Source: Actinomycetota bacterium
GTDB taxonomy: Bacteria > Actinomycetota > Geothermincolia > Geothermincolales > RBG-13-55-18
Direction: 5' to 3'
Assembly (NCBI GenBank): GCA_013178005.1
Contig: JABLXL010000009.1
Span: 1 to 64,000 of the forward strand
DNA length: 64,000 nt
Part shown: positions 11,482 to 27,990 of the stretch, piece after piece
Layout of the letters: each line of letters opens with the position of its first letter
Numbering within the stretch: position 1 is the first letter of the stretch
Position numbers and translations under genes: made by a program
The notes under the pieces: generated by a model
What the model was told of the DNA's origin: nothing
What the model saw: the letters and a program-made list of their open reading frames with translations, nothing else
Databases searched by the model: none

Positions 11482-12924
11482 ATGGGAGGAAGGTGCTTGC
11501 CGGGGAATGGGGGCATGCAACGCTCCCGGCGCGGGCGAACCGGAGACAATTACGCGCGCGCAGGAAAGCGGCTTTTCGTCAGCATGTTTCTGGTAGCATG
11601 CCTGGTGGCGAGCGCGCCGGGCTGCGGAGATAAGAAAGGGGGTCGGGATATGCAACCCGCGTTGGAGGTTTCGCCCCAGCAGGTGCTCGTGGGCGACCCC
11701 GTCAGCATCAAGGTCACGGGGCTGTCGCCGGGCGAGATGGCCTCGCTCCGGGTATCCGGCCAGGACCAGTTCGGCAACACCTGGTCGGCCGAGGCTTCCT
11801 TCGAGGCGGACGAGACGGGGACCGTGGACACCTCTCGAGACGCTCCCACGGACGGATCCTACCAGGGAGTGGACCAGGCAGGGCTCTTCTGGTCCATGGT
11901 CTGCGCCCCCGCGGGGGAGATGGTATCGCCCTTCGCCGCCATCACCACCTATGTCGTCTCCCTGAGCCTGGACGGACAGGAAGTGGCAAGCCAGGAGGTC
12001 CAGCGGGTGGTGGACGTCGACCTGAAGAAGGAGAACCTGAGCGACCCCGTGGTGGGAGTTTTCATAACGCCGAAAGAGATAGAGGAACCCACGCCGGCGT
12101 TGATCGTCCTGGGCGGGTCCGAGGGCGGTTACAACGAGCGCTGGGCGACGGTCATCGCCTCCAAGACGCGCATGCCCACCTTGGCCTTGGCCTACTTCGG
12201 GGCCCCGGGACTGTCCCAGACCCTGGAGAACATCCCCCTGGAGATCGTGGAAAAGGCCATAGCGTGGCTCAACCAGCAGGAGGTCGTCGCCAAGGACAGG
12301 ATCGGCGTCGTCGGGGCGTCGCGGGGAGGAGAGCTGGCCATGCTGGCCGCCTCGCTCTTCCCCCAGGTGAAGGCGGTGGTGGGATACACTCCCAGCGGCG
12401 TCATCTGGGGAGGGATCGGCGAGGGGGACGCCCCGGCGTGGACCTACCGCGGCGAGGCCTTTCCCTACCTCAGGACGATGTTTAGCGAGGAGCAGGAGAG
12501 GCTATTCCGCGAAGCCCAGGAGAAGGGGACGCCCTACCTCGACGCGCCCTCCTTCGAATATAGCCTACAGCAGCAGAGCTCGCTCGTTGAGAAGGCCACC
12601 ATACCGGTGGAGCGCTCGCAGGCGGCGTTCCTGCTCATCGGCAACCCCGGGGACGGGGTGTGGCCGTCCGATAAGCTCTCCCGCATAGCCATCGACCGCC
12701 TGGACGCTCACGGTTACCCGCGAGCCCACCAGCTGCTCTCCTACGAGGACGGGGGGCACATGCTCATCCCCTACCCCTTCTTCCCCACCACCATGCGCCA
12801 GTTCTACCTGCCGACGGTCAGGGTCTGGGAAGGCTTAGGGGGGACGGCGGAGGGCGCCGCCAGGGCCGCGGAGGATTCCTGGCCCAAGGTGTTGGAGTTC
12901 CTCCGGGACGAGCTGGGGACTTGA
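11482..12924 (+). CDS. Exported BAAT-family acyltransferase/thioesterase lipoprotein
   Basis: The ATG at 11482 has GGAGGT five bases upstream; a second in-frame ATG at 11515 is possible. The 480-residue product has an Arg/Lys-rich N terminus, a hydrophobic segment and a lipobox-like ASAPGC, so it is probably a lipoprotein. An N-terminal beta-sandwich like the acyl-CoA thioester hydrolase / bile acid-CoA:amino acid N-acyltransferase (BAAT) N-domain precedes an alpha/beta-hydrolase domain. Likely catalytic residues are Ser280 (GASRGG), Asp391 (GDGVWPS) and His426 (GGHMLIPY). Animal BAAT uses Cys; Ser is typical of thioesterases in the family. Export is odd, because the usual acyl-CoA substrates are cytoplasmic. 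Confidence 0.85.
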   Translation: MGGRCLPGNGGMQRSRRGRTGDNYARAGKRLFVSMFLVACLVASAPGCGDKKGGRDMQPALEVSPQQVLVGDPVSIKVTGLSPGEMASLRVSGQDQFGNTWSAEASFEADETGTVDTSRDAPTDGSYQGVDQAGLFWSMVCAPAGEMVSPFAAITTYVVSLSLDGQEVASQEVQRVVDVDLKKENLSDPVVGVFITPKEIEEPTPALIVLGGSEGGYNERWATVIASKTRMPTLALAYFGAPGLSQTLENIPLEIVEKAIAWLNQQEVVAKDRIGVVGASRGGELAMLAASLFPQVKAVVGYTPSGVIWGGIGEGDAPAWTYRGEAFPYLRTMFSEEQERLFREAQEKGTPYLDAPSFEYSLQQQSSLVEKATIPVERSQAAFLLIGNPGDGVWPSDKLSRIAIDRLDAHGYPRAHQLLSYEDGGHMLIPYPFFPTTMRQFYLPTVRVWEGLGGTAEGAARAAEDSWPKVLEFLRDELGT

Positions 12925-15073: not shown

Positions 15074-15913
15074 TCAGCCGTCGGAGCCGATGTCCACCCG
15101 CTTGCCCAGGCGCTCCAGGCACAGGCGTGCATAATCCGGGTCCTCCACGCGGACGCGGATGGCCCCGCGGGGACAGGCGGCTGCGCAGCGTCCGCAGGCC
15201 TTGCAGTCGTCCCCGATGACGGCGCGCCCGCCGTCCAGGCGGAGTTGTGAGAAGATGCAGTAATCCTGGCATGCCCCGCATCCGTCGCAGCCCTCTCCCA
15301 CCTCGACGCTGACCCCCTCCAGCCTTACCATTATGCGCATCGCCTCGGGCTGCAGGTGCGGCAACAAGCCGATAAGGCAGCAGCAGGAGCAGCAGAAGCA
15401 GACGGTCATGAAGTGCCGGTAGTCGCTGACCCCGAAGGCGCGGGCGTCCACCCAGGACTGCCCGATACAGGGGACCAGGCCGGAGGATACCGCCCTGCGC
15501 AGGTGCTCCCGGGCTTCCTCAACGCTGGCCTCGCGCCCCATGGCCGGGTCCAGCTGGCGGGTACCCTCCCCCAGGAAGAGACAGCCGATGCCGGGGTCGT
15601 GTTCTGTGCAGCCCGTGGAGGAGCGGCAGAAGCAGTGGTCCACGATAAAGCGCCGCGAGGCCCGCTCGATCAAGCCCTCCACTATCGATTCGGGGACGCA
15701 CGAATCCGGGGGCACCGTTACGCTCTCGCCCACGGGGATGCAGCTGAAGGTGTTCCCCCGCATGATGGAGGCGCTGATGCGGTCCACCGGCCAGACCCCT
15801 CCCAGCCAGCGGAGCACTCGCCGGTACCTGCGGGCCAGCCCCACCGGGCTCATGGGGAACCTGAAGTTGTCGAAGACAAGCTTGCGCAGGGTCATAGGCA
15901 CGTGCTCCCGCAT
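15074..15913 (-). CDS. Cys-rich ferredoxin-type protein, paralogue C
   Basis: This 279-residue paralogue has CFCR at 94-97, GCLFLGEG near 110, a VEEAREH segment, CFCCSCCC at 172-179 and two C-terminal cluster motifs (CDGCGACQDYC and CKACGRCAAACP). It groups with paralogues D and E, with which it shares the spacer pattern GC.F.GEG...-DP..GR-.S.EEA and the GVS...HF.TVCFCC block. An ATG six codons downstream also has a GGGAG site, so the start is uncertain. No signal peptide is evident; the N-terminal 40 residues are basic and amphipathic and may contact a membrane. It has no operon partner. Confidence 0.82.
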   Translation of the reverse strand: MREHVPMTLRKLVFDNFRFPMSPVGLARRYRRVLRWLGGVWPVDRISASIMRGNTFSCIPVGESVTVPPDSCVPESIVEGLIERASRRFIVDHCFCRSSTGCTEHDPGIGCLFLGEGTRQLDPAMGREASVEEAREHLRRAVSSGLVPCIGQSWVDARAFGVSDYRHFMTVCFCCSCCCLIGLLPHLQPEAMRIMVRLEGVSVEVGEGCDGCGACQDYCIFSQLRLDGGRAVIGDDCKACGRCAAACPRGAIRVRVEDPDYARLCLERLGKRVDIGSDG

Positions 15914-18871: not shown

Positions 18872-19699
18872 TCAGGTCACATCCGCGTAGCTCTCTATGC
18901 GCCGGAAGGCCTCCTCCATCATGCGGTCCCCGTCGGCCACCCTTATAGTGATGGCGTGGCGCGGGCAGGCCTCCACGCACAGGCCGCATCCCTTGCAGTC
19001 CTCGGTGATGCGAGCCCGCTTGTCCTCGATGAGGATGGCTTGCGAGAAGCACTGCTTCGCGCACTTGCCGCAGCCGTCACATTCCTCCGAGACCTCGATG
19101 CTCAATCCCTCCAGGCGGTGCATGCGGCTCCGCACGTCCGGGTCCCAGCTCAACTGGTTGCGCATGGCGATGCAGCAGCAGGTGCAGCAGAAGCAAAGGG
19201 TCAAGAAACGCGACCAGTCCTTCATCCTCACGCCGAGCATGAACGGGTCGGGGTCGACGCGCCCGATCTGGGGGATGAGCCCGGCGGCGATGGAGCGCTC
19301 CATGTGCGCAAGCGCCTCCTCCACCGAGACCGCCTTGCCTATGCTGGGGTCGATCTGCTTCGCCCCCTCGCCCATGAAGATGCACCCGATCTCCATGGGG
19401 AAACGCTCGCAGCGGCAGCCCACCCGGCACATGCACAGGGGGATGATGACGCGGTGGCAGGAGCGGCGGATCATCTCCGCCACCAACTGCTTGGGGACCA
19501 CCGTGGAACCCTCCGCCTCCAGCTCCTTGTTGATGGGGATGAAGGTGACGTCGTAATGGTCCCGGTTGACGATCCACCCGAAGAGCTTGCCCACCACTGG
19601 CCAGGCGGTGGTCTTGGCCCAAAGGTCGGTGACCGGCTGCCAGACGGAGATGGCCCAGAGCATGGTGCGCCAATCCCTCTTGATCAGGCTTTTCCTCAT
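18872..19699 (-). CDS. Cys-rich ferredoxin-type protein, paralogue D
   Basis: I chose the ATG at 19697-19699, which has GGGGGTAGAG directly before it, over an upstream frame. The 275-residue product has the family motifs CMCR (89-92), GCIFMGEG (105-112), VSVEEALAHM, CFCCTCCC (169-176) and two 4Fe-4S motifs (CDGCGKCAKQC and CKGCGLCVEACP). It is closest to paralogue C by eye, sharing LEGLSIEV before the clusters. The N-terminal 45 residues contain Trp-rich hydrophobic stretches that could sit in a membrane. It is divergent from the phosphatidyltransferase gene, 117 bases away. Confidence 0.83.
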   Translation of the reverse strand: MRKSLIKRDWRTMLWAISVWQPVTDLWAKTTAWPVVGKLFGWIVNRDHYDVTFIPINKELEAEGSTVVPKQLVAEMIRRSCHRVIIPLCMCRVGCRCERFPMEIGCIFMGEGAKQIDPSIGKAVSVEEALAHMERSIAAGLIPQIGRVDPDPFMLGVRMKDWSRFLTLCFCCTCCCIAMRNQLSWDPDVRSRMHRLEGLSIEVSEECDGCGKCAKQCFSQAILIEDKRARITEDCKGCGLCVEACPRHAITIRVADGDRMMEEAFRRIESYADVT

Positions 19700-19816
19700 C
19701 TCTACCCCCTCGCGCTTCCCCCTCCGCACGTGAACGTCTTGATTGTAACCCCGGGCGCCACCACGGGCCAGCGCGCGCCCTTTCCACCCCGCCAAGGTAG
19801 GGATAGAATATGTTCC

Positions 19817-20362
19817 ATGAAGGGTTACGGCATTAGAGGATGGGCGGTCGAGAACGCCAAGGTGATCGCGGACGTGCTCACGGGGATCAGGTTTTTCGTG
19901 GGGCTGCTCATCGTCATGTGCGCCTTCTTCGCCGAGCCCTCGCTTCTGCCCCTGGTGGTGGCGCTCACCCTAATCGGCTGGACCACGGACGTCCTGGACG
20001 GCAAGATGGCGCGCATGGACCGCACGGGGAAAAAGACCTGGGTCGGGGACTTCGACTTCGCCACCGACCTCATCCTCATCTACTCCGGCCTGCTGTATTT
20101 CGTGACCGCGGGATACCTCCCATTGCGCCCATTCCTGTTCTACGGCGCCTACGCGGCGGTGACCGGCCTGATCTGGACCAAGAAGTCGGTGATGATGGCG
20201 GTGGCCGCGCCCATCGCCGCCGTGCCCATCATCCTTTCCTTCGTGCATTACCCGCTTTGGGGTTGGGTCTTCCTGGGATGGATCGCCTTGGACCTTATCC
20301 TGAACTGGTCCGACTTCACCTCCGAGATAAAGGAGTTCATAGACGACGTGGAGGAGAGTTGA
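19817..20362 (+). CDS. CDP-alcohol phosphatidyltransferase family protein
   Basis: The 181-residue membrane protein has the core of the CDP-alcohol phosphotransferase motif, DVLDGKMAR, followed by DFDFATD. These carboxylates bind two metal ions and the CDP-linked lipid. Between them the spacing differs by one residue from the usual DG-X2-AR-X8-G-X3-D-X3-D, with the Gly shifted. Three or four hydrophobic segments follow. The enzyme would make a phospholipid such as a phosphatidylglycerol or phosphatidylinositol precursor, but the sequence does not fix the acceptor. The ribosome site (GGTAGGG) is weak and 10 or more bases away. Confidence 0.8.
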   Translation: MKGYGIRGWAVENAKVIADVLTGIRFFVGLLIVMCAFFAEPSLLPLVVALTLIGWTTDVLDGKMARMDRTGKKTWVGDFDFATDLILIYSGLLYFVTAGYLPLRPFLFYGAYAAVTGLIWTKKSVMMAVAAPIAAVPIILSFVHYPLWGWVFLGWIALDLILNWSDFTSEIKEFIDDVEES

Positions 20363-20571
20363 GGGAGGTGCCGTTCCCCGCAGCTTAATCACTCGTAAAA
20401 GGTGGCCGCGCGGTATCGGCTAGACTGTCCAGGGTCGGTTTTTCATATCGCCGCCTTTTCGCCGGGCTCCTCTTGCTGAAGCATAGGAGGCAGCTCGGAG
20501 ATGATTCGTGATAGCGCGGGAAGAGAGCTGGTAGTCAAGGTATGGGCAGACAACCAAGCGTTGCGTTTGGA

Positions 20572-20601
20572 TCGTATTGCCCGAACTCAATGGCGAAGAG
20601 C
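20572..20601 (+). repeat. Dispersed 30-base repeat, copy 1
   Basis: CGTATTGCCC.-ACTC-.GGCGAAGAGCC also occurs at 61147-61176 with 26 of 30 bases identical. Read on the minus strand both copies encode LFA(I/V)E(F/Y)GQY. This copy ends 20 bases before the GAF-ANTAR start, inside its leader. Confidence 0.5.
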
Positions 20602-20621
20602 CTTTTTCCTGGGGAGGGTAA

Positions 20622-21320
20622 TTGGCTGAGAAGACCTACCGCAAGGGACAGATCGAGGCCCTGGAGGAGGTGAGCAGGGCCATCGTGTCCGACCTCTACC
20701 TCGAGGACATCCTCAAGCTCATCGTCATGGTCACCGCGGAGGTGATGGACTCCAGCATCTGTTCGCTGCTGCTTTTGAACGAGAAGGAAAACCGCCTGGA
20801 GATAAAGGCCACGCAATCGGTGAGCGAAGGCTATCTAAACAAGCCCACGGTGAAGCTGGGCGAGGGCATCGCCGGGTTGGTGGCGCTCGAGAACCGGCCC
20901 ATACAGGTGCGGGACGTGCGCGAAGACCCACGCTATATCAACAAGGAGGTGGCGGTCAAGGAAGGCCTGTGTTCCCTGCTCAGCGTGCCCATGTGCGTTA
21001 AAGGCAAGGTTATCGGGGTGCTCAACTGCTACACCTCCGAGCCCAGGGAGTTCAGTCCCGAGGATATAAGCCTGCTCACGGCAGTGGCCAACCAGGCGGC
21101 GGTGGCCATCGAGAACACCGAGCTGCTGGTGAAGACGCGCATCGTCCAGGAGGAGCTGGAGACGCGCAAGCTGGTGGAGAGGGCCAAGGACATCCTCATG
21201 CGCGACCGCTCCATCAGCGGCGAGGAAGCCTACCGGCGCATGAGGCGCAAGGCCATGAACACGCGCAAGAGCATGCGCGAGATCGCCGAGGCCATCATCC
21301 TCGCCGACGTGGAAACCTAG
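20622..21320 (+). CDS. GAF-ANTAR antitermination regulator
   Basis: The gene starts at TTG 20622 after GGGGAGGG. The 232-residue protein has a GAF domain (about residues 10-165, with LGEGIAGLVALENRPIQVRDV and SLLSVPM typical of the fold), a helical linker and an ANTAR domain (about 170-225: LVERAKDILMRDRSISGEEAYRRM, split here by AKDILM and EEAYRRM). ANTAR domains bind RNA hairpin pairs with hexanucleotide loops and block intrinsic terminators. Such a target lies 0.3 kb downstream in the leader of the glutamate-synthase-like gene. The GAF domain probably binds the effector, which is unknown. It contains two Cys pairs (SSICSLL and GLCS...MC) that could make it redox- or ligand-sensitive. Confidence 0.93.
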   Translation: MAEKTYRKGQIEALEEVSRAIVSDLYLEDILKLIVMVTAEVMDSSICSLLLLNEKENRLEIKATQSVSEGYLNKPTVKLGEGIAGLVALENRPIQVRDVREDPRYINKEVAVKEGLCSLLSVPMCVKGKVIGVLNCYTSEPREFSPEDISLLTAVANQAAVAIENTELLVKTRIVQEELETRKLVERAKDILMRDRSISGEEAYRRMRRKAMNTRKSMREIAEAIILADVET

Positions 21321-21591
21321 GACCCTAAGATTCCCTTTTTTCGCTCCTTGCGCATCTATTACGGCATATGGCGGACGGATTTCACATTGCTTCACCATTC
21401 GCCTCCGTTTACGCCGTGTCGTTTCGTCAAGCGCTTTCCGAGATGAGGTAGGCTGGAAGACCAACCTTTCATCCCGGCGGTCAGGCTTCAATAAGGAAAA
21501 AGGGCGGTCTCCCAAGTGTTTGATCGGGTTGATTTGACGCTGAGCGCGTTTCCCGATGCTGTATCGTTTCGGTAGGCGCTTTCCGGTTCCC

Positions 21592-21619
21592 TTGACAGGG
21601 AAACGGGTTATGCTATTAT
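21592..21619 (+). promoter_or_regulatory. Sigma-70 promoter of the glutamate-synthase-like gene
   Basis: TTGACA (21592-21597), 16 bases, TATTAT (21614-21619). Transcription would begin near 21626, just before the two-hairpin leader element. Confidence 0.8.
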
Positions 21620-21633
21620 TTTCTAGGTTTGAG

Positions 21634-21678
21634 GCCCGGCACAAAGGGGTGCCTGGGCGTTGGACACAGACGTCCGGC
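21634..21678 (+). promoter_or_regulatory. ANTAR two-hairpin RNA target
   Basis: Hairpin 1 pairs 21638-21642 (GGCAC) with 21649-21653 (GTGCC) around the hexaloop AAAGGG (21643-21648); GCCC/GGGC extends the stem with one bulged base. Hairpin 2 follows at once: 21659-21665 (GTTGGAC) pairs with 21672-21678 (GTCCGGC) around the hexaloop ACAGAC (21666-21671). Both loops have A at position 1 and G at position 4, the conserved features of ANTAR-protein targets. Hairpin 2 uses the 5' arm of the downstream terminator, so the two are mutually exclusive. The match is by inspection only. Confidence 0.85.
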
Positions 21679-21701
21679 AGCAAAAAGTCGGGCGCTTTTT
21701 T
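21671..21701 (+). terminator. Regulated intrinsic terminator in the glutamate-synthase-like leader
   Basis: CGTCCGGC (21671-21678) pairs with GTCGGGCG (21687-21694) over 8 bp with two G-U pairs around an eight-base loop, followed by C and six T. Formation would require that ANTAR hairpin 2 is open. Confidence 0.85.
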
Positions 21702-21741
21702 ATTTGTGAAAGGCAGCAGAGGGATTAAAAGGAGGACCGGC

Positions 21742-23313
21742 ATGAGTTTCAGCAAACCCAACTCCAGTGAGGCGACGCTCACACGCCTTCGCACAGGAAA
21801 GGACTACTGCCCCTTCAGCGGCATGTGCGTGACCTGCGTGGAGGGGTGCACGGGGTTGTGCGAGATCGGTAAGTCCGCTTACCGTGGAGCGGAAGTGCTG
21901 TATCCCCAGCCTTTCGGCGGAAGCACCTCGGCTTCACAGAAGGACTACCCCGTCGACTACTCCCACCTCAACATCATGGGGACCGCGGTGGGCGCGGTGG
22001 GCATCGAGCCCGACCCGGACGTGGCCACCTTCCCCGCCGTGAACCTGGAGATTGCCATAGGCGCCGCCAAGGACTTGAAACTGCGTCTACCTTTCGTGAT
22101 TCCCGGCCTGGGATCCACCGACGTGGCCAAGAACAACTGGGAGGGACTGGCCATCGGCTCAGCCATCAGCGGCACCATCCTCACCATAGGCGAAAACATC
22201 TGTGGCATGGACGAGAAGTCCGTGATCGAGAACGGGCGGGTCGTTGATTCCCCGGACCTCATCCGCAGGGTGAAGCTTTTCCAAGACTGGTACGACGGTT
22301 ACGGCGCCATCGTGGTGCAATCCAACGTGGAGGACACCCGCCTCGGAGTTCTGGAATACGCCCTGGACAAGCTGGGAGTCCAGGTGGTCGAGCTCAAGTG
22401 GGGACAGGGGGCCAAGGATATCGGGGGCGAGGTCAAGATACGTTCCCTGGAGAAGGCCCAGATGCTCAAGCAGCGGGGCTACATCGTTCTCCCTGACCCT
22501 GAGGCTGAAACCTCCAAGCAGAACTTCTACAAGACCTTCAGCGAATTCGAGCGCCACTCGCGTATCGGCTTCGTGGACGAGGAATCCTTCGTAAACAGGG
22601 TCAAGGAGTTGCGCGACGCTGGCGCCAAGTACGTCTTCCTCAAGACCGGTGCATACCGCCCCGCCGATCTGGCCCGCGCGGTCAAGTTCTCCTCCCTGGC
22701 CAAGATCGACCTCCTCACCGTTGACGGCGCAGGAGGCGGCACCGGCATGAGCCCGTGGCGCATGATGAACGAGTGGGGAATCCCCACCATCCACCTCGCT
22801 GCCATGACCTATGAATACGCCAAGCGCCTGGCGGACAAGGGCCAGTACGTGCCGGACATCGCCATCGCGGGCGGCTTCACCCTGGAGGATCACATCGTGA
22901 AGGCGCTGGCCATGGGAGCGCCCTACTTCAAGCTGGTGGGCATGGCTCGTTCGCCCATCGCCGCGGCCATGGTGGGAAAGACCATCGGCAAGCTCATCGA
23001 GGAGGAGAACCTCCCCAAGGCCATCTCCTCCTACGGCAACAGCGTGGAGGAGATTTTTGTGGCCGCCCCCGAGCTGAAGGAGCGCTACGGCGATCGCTTC
23101 AAGGATATCCCCACCTCCGCTATCGGTGTTTACACTTACTACAAGCGCCTGGCCCAAGGGATAAGGCAGCTCATGTGCGGCGCGCGCAAGTTCGCCCTGG
23201 AGTACCTGAGCCGCGACGACCTCTGCTCCCTGACCAGGGAATGCGCGGAGATCACTGGCATCCCCTACGTCATGGATATCGACAAGGACGAGGTGGACAA
23301 GATACTGGGCTGA
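21742..23313 (+). CDS. FMN-binding glutamate-synthase-family protein
   Basis: The ATG at 21742 has GGAGG six bases upstream. The 523-residue protein corresponds to the FMN-binding synthase domain of glutamate synthase (GltB-like), without an amidotransferase domain. The VDGAGGGTGMSP block (about residue 331) and the later IAIAGGFTLEDHIVKALAMGA are typical of the barrel that holds FMN. Six Cys within residues 24-42 (CPFSGMCVTCVEGC and GLCEIG) add a Cys-rich N-terminal segment that may bind a cluster. Such stand-alone proteins may make glutamate with ammonia from separate subunits or have another amino-transfer role. ANTAR control of this gene fits nitrogen metabolism. Confidence 0.88.
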   Translation: MSFSKPNSSEATLTRLRTGKDYCPFSGMCVTCVEGCTGLCEIGKSAYRGAEVLYPQPFGGSTSASQKDYPVDYSHLNIMGTAVGAVGIEPDPDVATFPAVNLEIAIGAAKDLKLRLPFVIPGLGSTDVAKNNWEGLAIGSAISGTILTIGENICGMDEKSVIENGRVVDSPDLIRRVKLFQDWYDGYGAIVVQSNVEDTRLGVLEYALDKLGVQVVELKWGQGAKDIGGEVKIRSLEKAQMLKQRGYIVLPDPEAETSKQNFYKTFSEFERHSRIGFVDEESFVNRVKELRDAGAKYVFLKTGAYRPADLARAVKFSSLAKIDLLTVDGAGGGTGMSPWRMMNEWGIPTIHLAAMTYEYAKRLADKGQYVPDIAIAGGFTLEDHIVKALAMGAPYFKLVGMARSPIAAAMVGKTIGKLIEEENLPKAISSYGNSVEEIFVAAPELKERYGDRFKDIPTSAIGVYTYYKRLAQGIRQLMCGARKFALEYLSRDDLCSLTRECAEITGIPYVMDIDKDEVDKILG

Positions 23314-23336
23314 TACCTGCCCGGCGACATCCAGAG

Positions 23337-23368
23337 GGCCTGGCCACGTTCAAGGGGCCAGGCCTTTT
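23337..23368 (+). terminator. Intrinsic terminator after the glutamate-synthase-like gene
   Basis: A perfect 9-bp stem (23337-23345 GGCCTGGCC with 23356-23364) and a 10-base loop, followed by TTTTCC. Confidence 0.88.
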
Positions 23369-23446
23369 CCTTATCCCATATTATGGCAGCCTCCCCCGGC
23401 GGACATTTCCAGGGCATCGATAGCCGGGCTTCGCGGAATATCCCCT

Positions 23447-23474
23447 TTTACAAGCCGGTGCCAGTCCCTATAAT
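23447..23474 (+). promoter_or_regulatory. Promoter of carAB
   Basis: TTTACA (23447-23452), 16 bases, TATAAT (23469-23474). The leader to the TTG start is only about 32 bases, too short for attenuation. Confidence 0.7.
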
Positions 23475-23512
23475 ATACGGAAGATTCGAGGACGGGAGGT
23501 AGGCGTAACCAC

Positions 23513-24664
23513 TTGACCGATAAGGCTGTCATCCTGCTCGAGGACGGGAAGTACTTCACCGGTACCCCCTTCGGAGCCCGCGGCACCGCCACGGGCGAGC
23601 TCGTGTTCAACACCAGCATGACCGGCTACCAGGAGGTCCTCACCGACCCCTCCTACAAGGGCCAGGTGGTCACCATGACCTACCCCCTCATCGGCAACTA
23701 CGGCGTCAACGAAGAGGACCTGGAATCCCCCCGCCCCCAGGTGGAGGGCTTTGTGGTGCGCGAGTGCTGCCGCTACCCCTCCAACTGGCGGGCCACCGCC
23801 TCCCTGGACGAATACCTCAGAGAGCATGGCATCGTGGGTATCGAGGGGGTGGACACCCGCGCAGTGACCCGGCACATACGCTCCCTGGGGGCCATGATGT
23901 GCATCGTCTCCTCGGAGGACACCGACCTGGCATCGTTGAAGCAGAAACTCGACCAGGCCCCGGGATACGTGGGGGTGGATCTGGTCGCCGAGGTCGCCTG
24001 CACCGAGCCCTACCGCTGGGAGGACCCGCGCACCCCGCCCATGGGGCGCGGGGTGCTGCCGGACGTCTCCGGGAAAGGAGAGCGCCCCCTGCGGGTGGTG
24101 GCCTATGACTGCGGCATCAAGCGCAACATCCTGCGCATCCTCTCCCACCTGGGCTGCGAGGTGGTGGTGGTCCCCGCAAACACCACCGCCTCGAAGGTGC
24201 TGGGGATGGGCCCGGACGGCATCTTCCTCTCCAACGGCCCCGGGGACCCGGCGGCGGTCACCTACCTCATCGACGAGGTGGCCAAGCTGGTGGGAGTTAA
24301 GCCCATCTTCGGAATCTGTCTGGGGCACCAGATCCTCGGCCTGGCCCTGGGGGGGCGCACCTTCAAGCTCAAGTTCGGGCACCGCGGAGCCAACCAGCCG
24401 GTGAAGGACCTGCGGCGGGGCAACATCCTCATCACCGCCCAGAACCACGGCTTCTGCGTGGACCTGGAGGCGGTGAAGGCCGACACCGAGCCCACCTTCG
24501 TCAACTTGAACGACGGCACCCTGGAGGGATTCCGCCACCGGCGCTACCCCGCCTACTCGGTGCAGTTCCACCCCGAGGACTCGCCGGGGCCCCACGACGC
24601 CGTCTACCTCTTCGGGGATTTCATCCGCGACATGCGCGCCGGGCGGGGTGAGGGCCGTGCCTGA
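23513..24664 (+). CDS. carA: Carbamoyl-phosphate synthase small chain
   Basis: The 383-residue protein is the glutaminase subunit that splits glutamine and passes ammonia to CarB for carbamoyl phosphate, feeding pyrimidines and arginine. The N-terminal CarA domain ([17 protein letters not shown]) is followed by a class I amidotransferase domain with nucleophile Cys269 in [10 protein letters not shown] and the His-Glu pair in FHPEDSPGP. The start is TTG, with GGAGGT 12 bases upstream, a rather long spacing. carB follows 56 bases later. It is preceded by the terminator of the glutamate-synthase-like gene and its own promoter. Confidence 0.97.
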
Positions 24665-24720
24665 GTCCATGGGCCCGCGGGCGGTCACGCGGAGAAGCCG
24701 GGCTGCCGACGCGTGCCGGG

Positions 24721-27990
<3,270 letters not shown>

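Follow-up and report, generated by a model that had tools for sequence, protein, structure and literature searches.

The window analysed here is a 64,000-nucleotide stretch of DNA from an Actinomycetota bacterium, and the element of interest is a leader RNA encoded at positions 21634–21701, between a regulatory gene and the enzyme gene that the leader precedes. Along the plus strand, the first feature is the gene for a GAF-ANTAR regulator (20622–21320; 232 amino acids, TTG start), which was assigned using Pfam and its orthologues in the class. This is followed by a sigma-70-type promoter (21592–21619), hairpin P1 (21634–21658), hairpin P2 (21659–21678) and an intrinsic terminator (21671–21701). 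An AGGAGG ribosome-binding site (RBS; 21730–21735) is visible in the sequence ahead of the target gene (21742–23313), which encodes a 523-residue glutamate-synthase-like protein of the flavin mononucleotide (FMN) type. The leader is, with a probability of about 0.92, an ANTAR transcription-attenuation switch for this gene, and the adjoining GAF-ANTAR protein is its regulator.

Anatomy of the leader

RNAs of this kind were defined by Ramesh et al. in 2012, with loops that carry A at position 1 and G at position 4 (A1/G4) and a second hairpin that overlaps a terminator (PMC3369931). The two hairpins stand in tandem, with stems of at least 3 bp and six-base loops. In the window, P1 has a 9-bp stem with one bulge, AC/GT closing pairs and the hexaloop AAAGGG (21643–21648), and P2 has a 7-bp stem and the hexaloop ACAGAC (21666–21671). 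Their core 5-bp stems are 7 nucleotides apart and both loops are A1/G4. The 3' arm of P2 (21672–21678) is shared with the terminator, whose 8-bp stem, CGTCCGGC-8 nt-GTCGGGCG (21671–21694), is followed by CTTTTTT, that is, a C and six T, up to 21701. This was the sole terminator-like site that a terminator scan found in 20000–24000. The promoter agrees with the consensus at 11/12 positions and consists of a -35 element, TTGACA (21592–21597), a 16-nucleotide spacer and a -10 element, TATTAT (21614–21619), which is preceded by an extended TG. The original prediction had described the two A1/G4 hexaloop hairpins with their shared arm, an 8-bp terminator with six T and a sigma-70 promoter just upstream, and each is present exactly as described.

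The competition between P2 and the terminator was followed by step-by-step folding of the growing RNA. RNA ending at 21678–21690 folds as P1 and P2 together, with an energy of -26 to -27 kcal/mol. Once the 3' arm of the terminator is present, the terminator displaces P2 while P1 stays, and the energy is -37 kcal/mol. P2 and the terminator are mutually exclusive in silico, as in other ANTAR-target RNAs. Overall, the 81-nucleotide leader folds 4.5 standard deviations better than shuffled sequences. A strict pattern, comprising A1/G4 loops, at least 5 bp per hairpin and an overlapping terminator, occurs once on both strands of the window and in 0/100 of its dinucleotide shuffles. An Rfam 15 scan of the window gave no match at the leader up to an E-value of 10, and its only strong match was a tRNA elsewhere.

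The GAF-ANTAR regulator

The regulator gene ends at 21320, which is 0.31 kb before P1 and is where the original prediction had placed a GAF-ANTAR gene. The encoded protein has a GAF domain at residues 27–164 (about 20700–21113) and an ANTAR domain at residues 176–226 (21147–21299), with Pfam matches to GAF_2 (1.7e-23) and ANTAR (3.6e-18) that are both above cut-off. It is encoded by the one ANTAR gene in the whole 97%-complete genome, so that the ANTAR protein of this genome is the one adjacent to the leader.

The residues of EutV that contact RNA were taken from PMC8934654, in that paper's numbering (the chain index in the alignment is two higher). In the alignment, 8/11 are identical in the window protein (Arg142, Lys143, Lys149, Tyr164, Arg168, Met172, Asn173 and Arg175) and Lys147 is replaced conservatively by Arg. 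With a sensor and an ANTAR domain in one chain and the RNA-contact residues retained, the protein fits a one-component ANTAR regulator. In a confident structure model (pLDDT 92), a long helix follows the GAF domain and the chain ends in ANTAR-like helices.

In a fold comparison, the closest folds to the GAF domain were those of PtsP GAF domains, and its sequence matches include PtsP, which is close, and NifA. As the GAF of Azotobacter NifA binds 2-oxoglutarate (PMC8219145), the signal is, by analogy, most likely nitrogen or carbon status, in the form of 2-oxoglutarate or glutamine. The sensor is a GAF rather than a PAS or NIT domain, a point that the original prediction had right. At the time of Ramesh et al. 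2012, no PAS- or GAF-ANTAR protein had been characterised (PMC3369931). A 2020 paper on NasR cites only two characterised one-component ANTAR proteins, naming PAL (PAS/LOV) beside NasR (NIT).

Conservation of the leader across the class

The class is Candidatus Geothermincolia (Actinomycetota), from which 31 genomes were compared. The controlled gene in these genomes is of two types. Type A is stand-alone and is found in the window and in genomes G005, G008, G009 and G011, with 86–91% identity; G011 and the window genome belong to one family but to separate genera. Most relatives carry a type B homologue (about 60–65% identity), which stands at the end of an operon whose other members encode NuoE/HndA-like, NuoF/HndC-like and 2Fe-2S/4Fe-4S proteins. 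When the leaders were read upstream of these genes and operons, the same order of promoter, P1, P2 and terminator was found, and both types share the same leader anatomy (type A at 21742–23313; L062, L065, L067, L072 and L075). The -10 element ends 8–18 nucleotides ahead of P1 in 22/22 leaders checked, and terminator-like stems overlap P2 in the related leaders as well.

An alignment of 24 leaders was used to examine the pairing, with both hairpins taken together. Paired cells make up 90.9% of the total versus 81.0% when shuffled, 31 cells are changed on both sides versus 12.3 in shuffles, and covariation is 0.297 versus 0.129 shuffled, with slid controls at or below 0.115. The pairs of P1, a hairpin also recovered by folding, covary among these leaders. 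In P2, the G-A-C/G-T-C pairs and the loop G at position 4 are invariant (24/24), and C-G is present in both hairpins of 24/24 leaders.

The loops are conserved in a form that is looser than the published rule. Position 4 is G in 48/48 loops. At position 1, there are 18 A and 6 G in P1, and 5 A and 19 G in P2. Across the class, the A1 requirement is therefore loosened to a purine (R1/G4), and the window leader has kept A1 in both loops. By its own terms, the original prediction would have failed had relatives lacked the two loops, and both are conserved; of its A1/G4 rule, the G4 part holds throughout the class and the A1 part holds for the window. A strict A1/G4 scan of the relatives missed most leaders owing to the frequent G at position 1 and the short P2 stems, and the matter was settled by reading the leaders directly.

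Two relatives have elaborated leaders. In G019 (L079:6712-6829), two dual-hairpin ANTAR leaders stand in tandem ahead of the type B operon. In G028 (L085:6936-7010), three successive hexaloop hairpins precede the terminator and position 1 of the middle loop is T.

The leader and the ANTAR gene occur together

An ANTAR gene is present in 21/31 class genomes, with exactly one in each, and in all 21 the dual hairpin precedes a glutamate-synthase-like gene or operon. A search with a model built from 21 leaders (model 1, R1) found a site in 21/21 of these genomes, 20 of them at an E-value of 6e-5 or lower and G028 at 0.0085. In the ANTAR-less genomes, a clear site was found in 1/10, namely G002. 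A Fisher test of 21/0 versus 1/9 gives a p of 5e-7, a value that is not corrected for kinship. Model searches revealed no such site at the glt genes of the ANTAR-less genomes G003, G023, G035 and G058.

The site in G002 (L063:6752-8100) looks like a relic. An intact-looking leader is followed by the wreckage of an operon after an apparent deletion, in which glt and the ANTAR gene are each reduced to a fragment of 66 residues.

Because model 1 had been trained on most of these leaders, a second model (R2) was built from type B leaders only. Its top match in the window is the leader described here (15.5 bits, E 0.022), and it also recovers the held-out leaders of G017 (8e-5), G005 (4e-4), G008 (5e-4), G028 (0.003), G009 (0.02) and G011 (0.07). 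At the glt genes of ANTAR-less genomes it found no leader, its lone weak match (E 0.63) being in L064, 2.2 kb upstream of glt. A search of the window's own genome for further sites gave a second-best match not better than E 0.17, and a wider regulon is therefore not supported.

The target enzyme and its exchange

The original prediction called the target glutamate-synthase-like. This stands insofar as the protein matches PF01645 (Glu_synthase, 8.2e-17), with the match limited to residues 277–398 of 523. By Pfam, the protein has neither a complete FMN glutamate synthase domain nor a glutaminase domain, and it departs in this from a full glutamate synthase with its glutaminase partner. Sequence searches of NCBIfam and PDB did not classify the enzyme, with no NCBIfam match, and a low-confidence structure model (pLDDT 70) has only FMN/TIM-barrel-like matches. 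Glutamate-synthase-like activity is thus presumed from the partial Pfam match.

In a tree, types A and B fall into separate, fully supported groups with sequences from other phyla between them. Three genera include type A members (g1, g3 and g4), and a type B member is found in each of these as well (G001, G004 and G013). As the two types are not sisters and both occur in g1, g3 and g4, the controlled enzyme has been exchanged while ANTAR control was retained, either through transfer or because ancient copies were lost. When the 2Fe-2S partner of type B was used as the query, the best matches in type A genomes were mostly 41–45% identical (50% over one short stretch), for comparison with 100% in the query's own operon.

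Directly 3' of the target in the window are carA- and carB-like genes for carbamoyl-phosphate synthase (23513–27990), which are near the target in many relatives. Two similar-looking ferredoxin-domain proteins of about 280–307 amino acids with extra cysteine-rich motifs are encoded close to one another on the minus strand, at 15077–15913 and 18875–19795.

Relation to known ANTAR systems

The mechanism is known, and glutamate synthases had already been linked to ANTAR control: in 2012, Ramesh et al. reported ANTAR RNAs at the glutamate synthase genes of Desulfotomaculum reducens and, generally, at glutamate, glutamine and arginine synthases (PMC3369931). The leaders of D. reducens and D. acetoxidans resemble that of the window in their dual hexaloops, P2-terminator overlap and downstream nitrogen-assimilation genes. 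D. copahuensis (L183) and Firmicutes bacterium UBA2595 (L205) have homologues of the window enzyme within gln/glt clusters, where canonical ANTAR leaders were recognised by eye. The suggestion that the locus extends ANTAR control to this enzyme thus gives way to these earlier and Bacillota cases.

Each of the two Bacillota clusters has several leaders (L183:8652-8695 and 12556-12594; L205:5967-6000 and one upstream of 4262), which stand before genes for an ANTAR-like regulator, a glutamine synthetase and glutamate synthases. The ANTAR-like proteins of L183 begin with receiver-like regions and share their locus with several leaders, whereas the window genome, that of an actinobacterium, has a single GAF-ANTAR and a single leader. 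A strict scan of 80 distant glt-homologue loci for a dual hairpin with a terminator found none; this negative was discarded because the dual hairpins of L183 and L205 are canonical but their terminator loops are long. Outside the class, a GAF-ANTAR orthologue is followed by a dual hairpin with A1/G4 in both loops in two other Actinomycetota, where the hairpins precede glutamine synthetase (G032, L088:9914-9970) and a split glutamate synthase (G048, L087:10472-10552).

The eut leaders of Enterococcus faecalis, which are bound by EutV of the EutV/EutW system, share with the window the architecture of the RNA, the AC/GT closing pairs and G4, and EutV has most of its RNA-contact residues in common with the window protein (PMC8934654). 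However, EutV is a response regulator that is phosphorylated, and its four leaders belong to a single operon, while the window regulator has a GAF domain and position 1 in the class is A or G. The nasF leader of Klebsiella oxytoca is alike in that a one-component ANTAR protein, NasR, acts by attenuation of a nitrogen-assimilation operon (PMC7496416), but the NIT domain of NasR senses nitrate and the GAF of the window regulator is NifA/PtsP-like. The actinobacterial ANTAR RNAs of PMC8164766 share the phylum, dual stem-loops and relaxed loops (A1 and G4 over 50%). These are mostly at the RBS, inside open reading frames or intergenic, with few terminators, in contrast to the terminator-coupled leaders of the Geothermincolia. 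The main text of that paper contains neither “glutamate” nor “GAF”.

Proposed mechanism and alternatives

Transcription would start about 8–15 nucleotides ahead of P1. In the default fold, P1 would form together with the terminator and polymerase would halt near 21701. On sensing its signal through the GAF domain, the adjoining regulator, which probably dimerises through the long helix that connects its two domains, would bind the hexaloop of P1 followed by that of P2 and flip out the guanine at position 4 of each loop. With P2 held closed, the 5' arm of the terminator would not be free, and the glutamate-synthase-like gene would be transcribed.

Comparative evidence strongly supports the core of the original prediction, that is, an ANTAR antiterminator that excludes a terminator beside its cognate GAF-ANTAR gene. 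Several observations weigh against it. Two of the 11 EutV contacts are altered in the window protein (Glu160 to Gly and Arg177 to Ser), and position 1 in the class departs from the A favoured by mutagenesis and by systematic evolution of ligands by exponential enrichment (SELEX). Most type B P2 stems keep just three strict base pairs; as these upper pairs never vary, covariation says little about pairing in P2. The matches of model 1 include its own training leaders and the independent model gives the window a modest E-value. Finally, the class genomes are mostly draft assemblies.

The sign of control could be the opposite of that proposed, and this variant leaves the RNA part unchanged. Here, a ligand such as glutamine would release the GAF-ANTAR protein from the RNA, with more termination when nitrogen is plentiful. 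PtsP-type GAFs have been proposed to sense metabolites of carbon/nitrogen status (PMC2937029), and the variant is possible, if rather doubtful. It is very unlikely that the leader is an ordinary attenuator, either constitutive or controlled by a metabolite in the manner of a riboswitch, with the GAF-ANTAR protein acting elsewhere and the hexaloops incidental. A metabolite could act directly on a terminator leader ahead of a nitrogen gene, and no Rfam family was found at the site, but the conserved part consists of two short hairpins only, whose invariant G4 and AC/GT and GAC/GTC closing pairs are known ANTAR determinants, and the site follows the ANTAR gene, being in every genome of the class that has one and absent at the glt genes of those without. 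Least probable of all is that the regulator binds the dual hairpin to govern translation or RNA stability, as reported for mycobacterial ANTAR RNAs: about 37% of the ANTAR RNAs predicted in actinobacteria extend over the RBS or start codon, and only a few lie ahead of a terminator (PMC8164766), but P2 ends at 21678, 51 nucleotides short of the RBS at 21730, its 3' arm is common to a strong terminator and related leaders retain overlapping terminator-like stems.

Implications

What is new in the switch proposed here is the lineage, a one-to-one pair of GAF-ANTAR protein and leader conserved class-wide, the relaxed R1/G4 loop and the exchange of target enzymes under constant control. A broader proposal, tentative and with odds slightly short of even, is that the class has a dedicated GAF-ANTAR circuit in which regulator and RNA are kept and the enzyme is swapped, being either type B with an Hnd/Nuo-like NADH module or the lone, non-sister type A. 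In such a circuit, binding of 2-oxoglutarate or glutamine by the GAF domain would control antitermination directly, and the R1/G4 rule would replace A1/G4.

The class is made up mostly of uncultured actinobacteria, in a phylum for which few terminator-coupled ANTAR RNAs have been reported. With one regulator and one leader, the locus offers a minimal system for the little-characterised GAF-ANTAR proteins, in which the GAF ligand and the sign of control are testable using one purified protein and an 80-nucleotide RNA. In addition, the natural replacement of A by G at position 1 of the loops provides a ready test of the role of that position.
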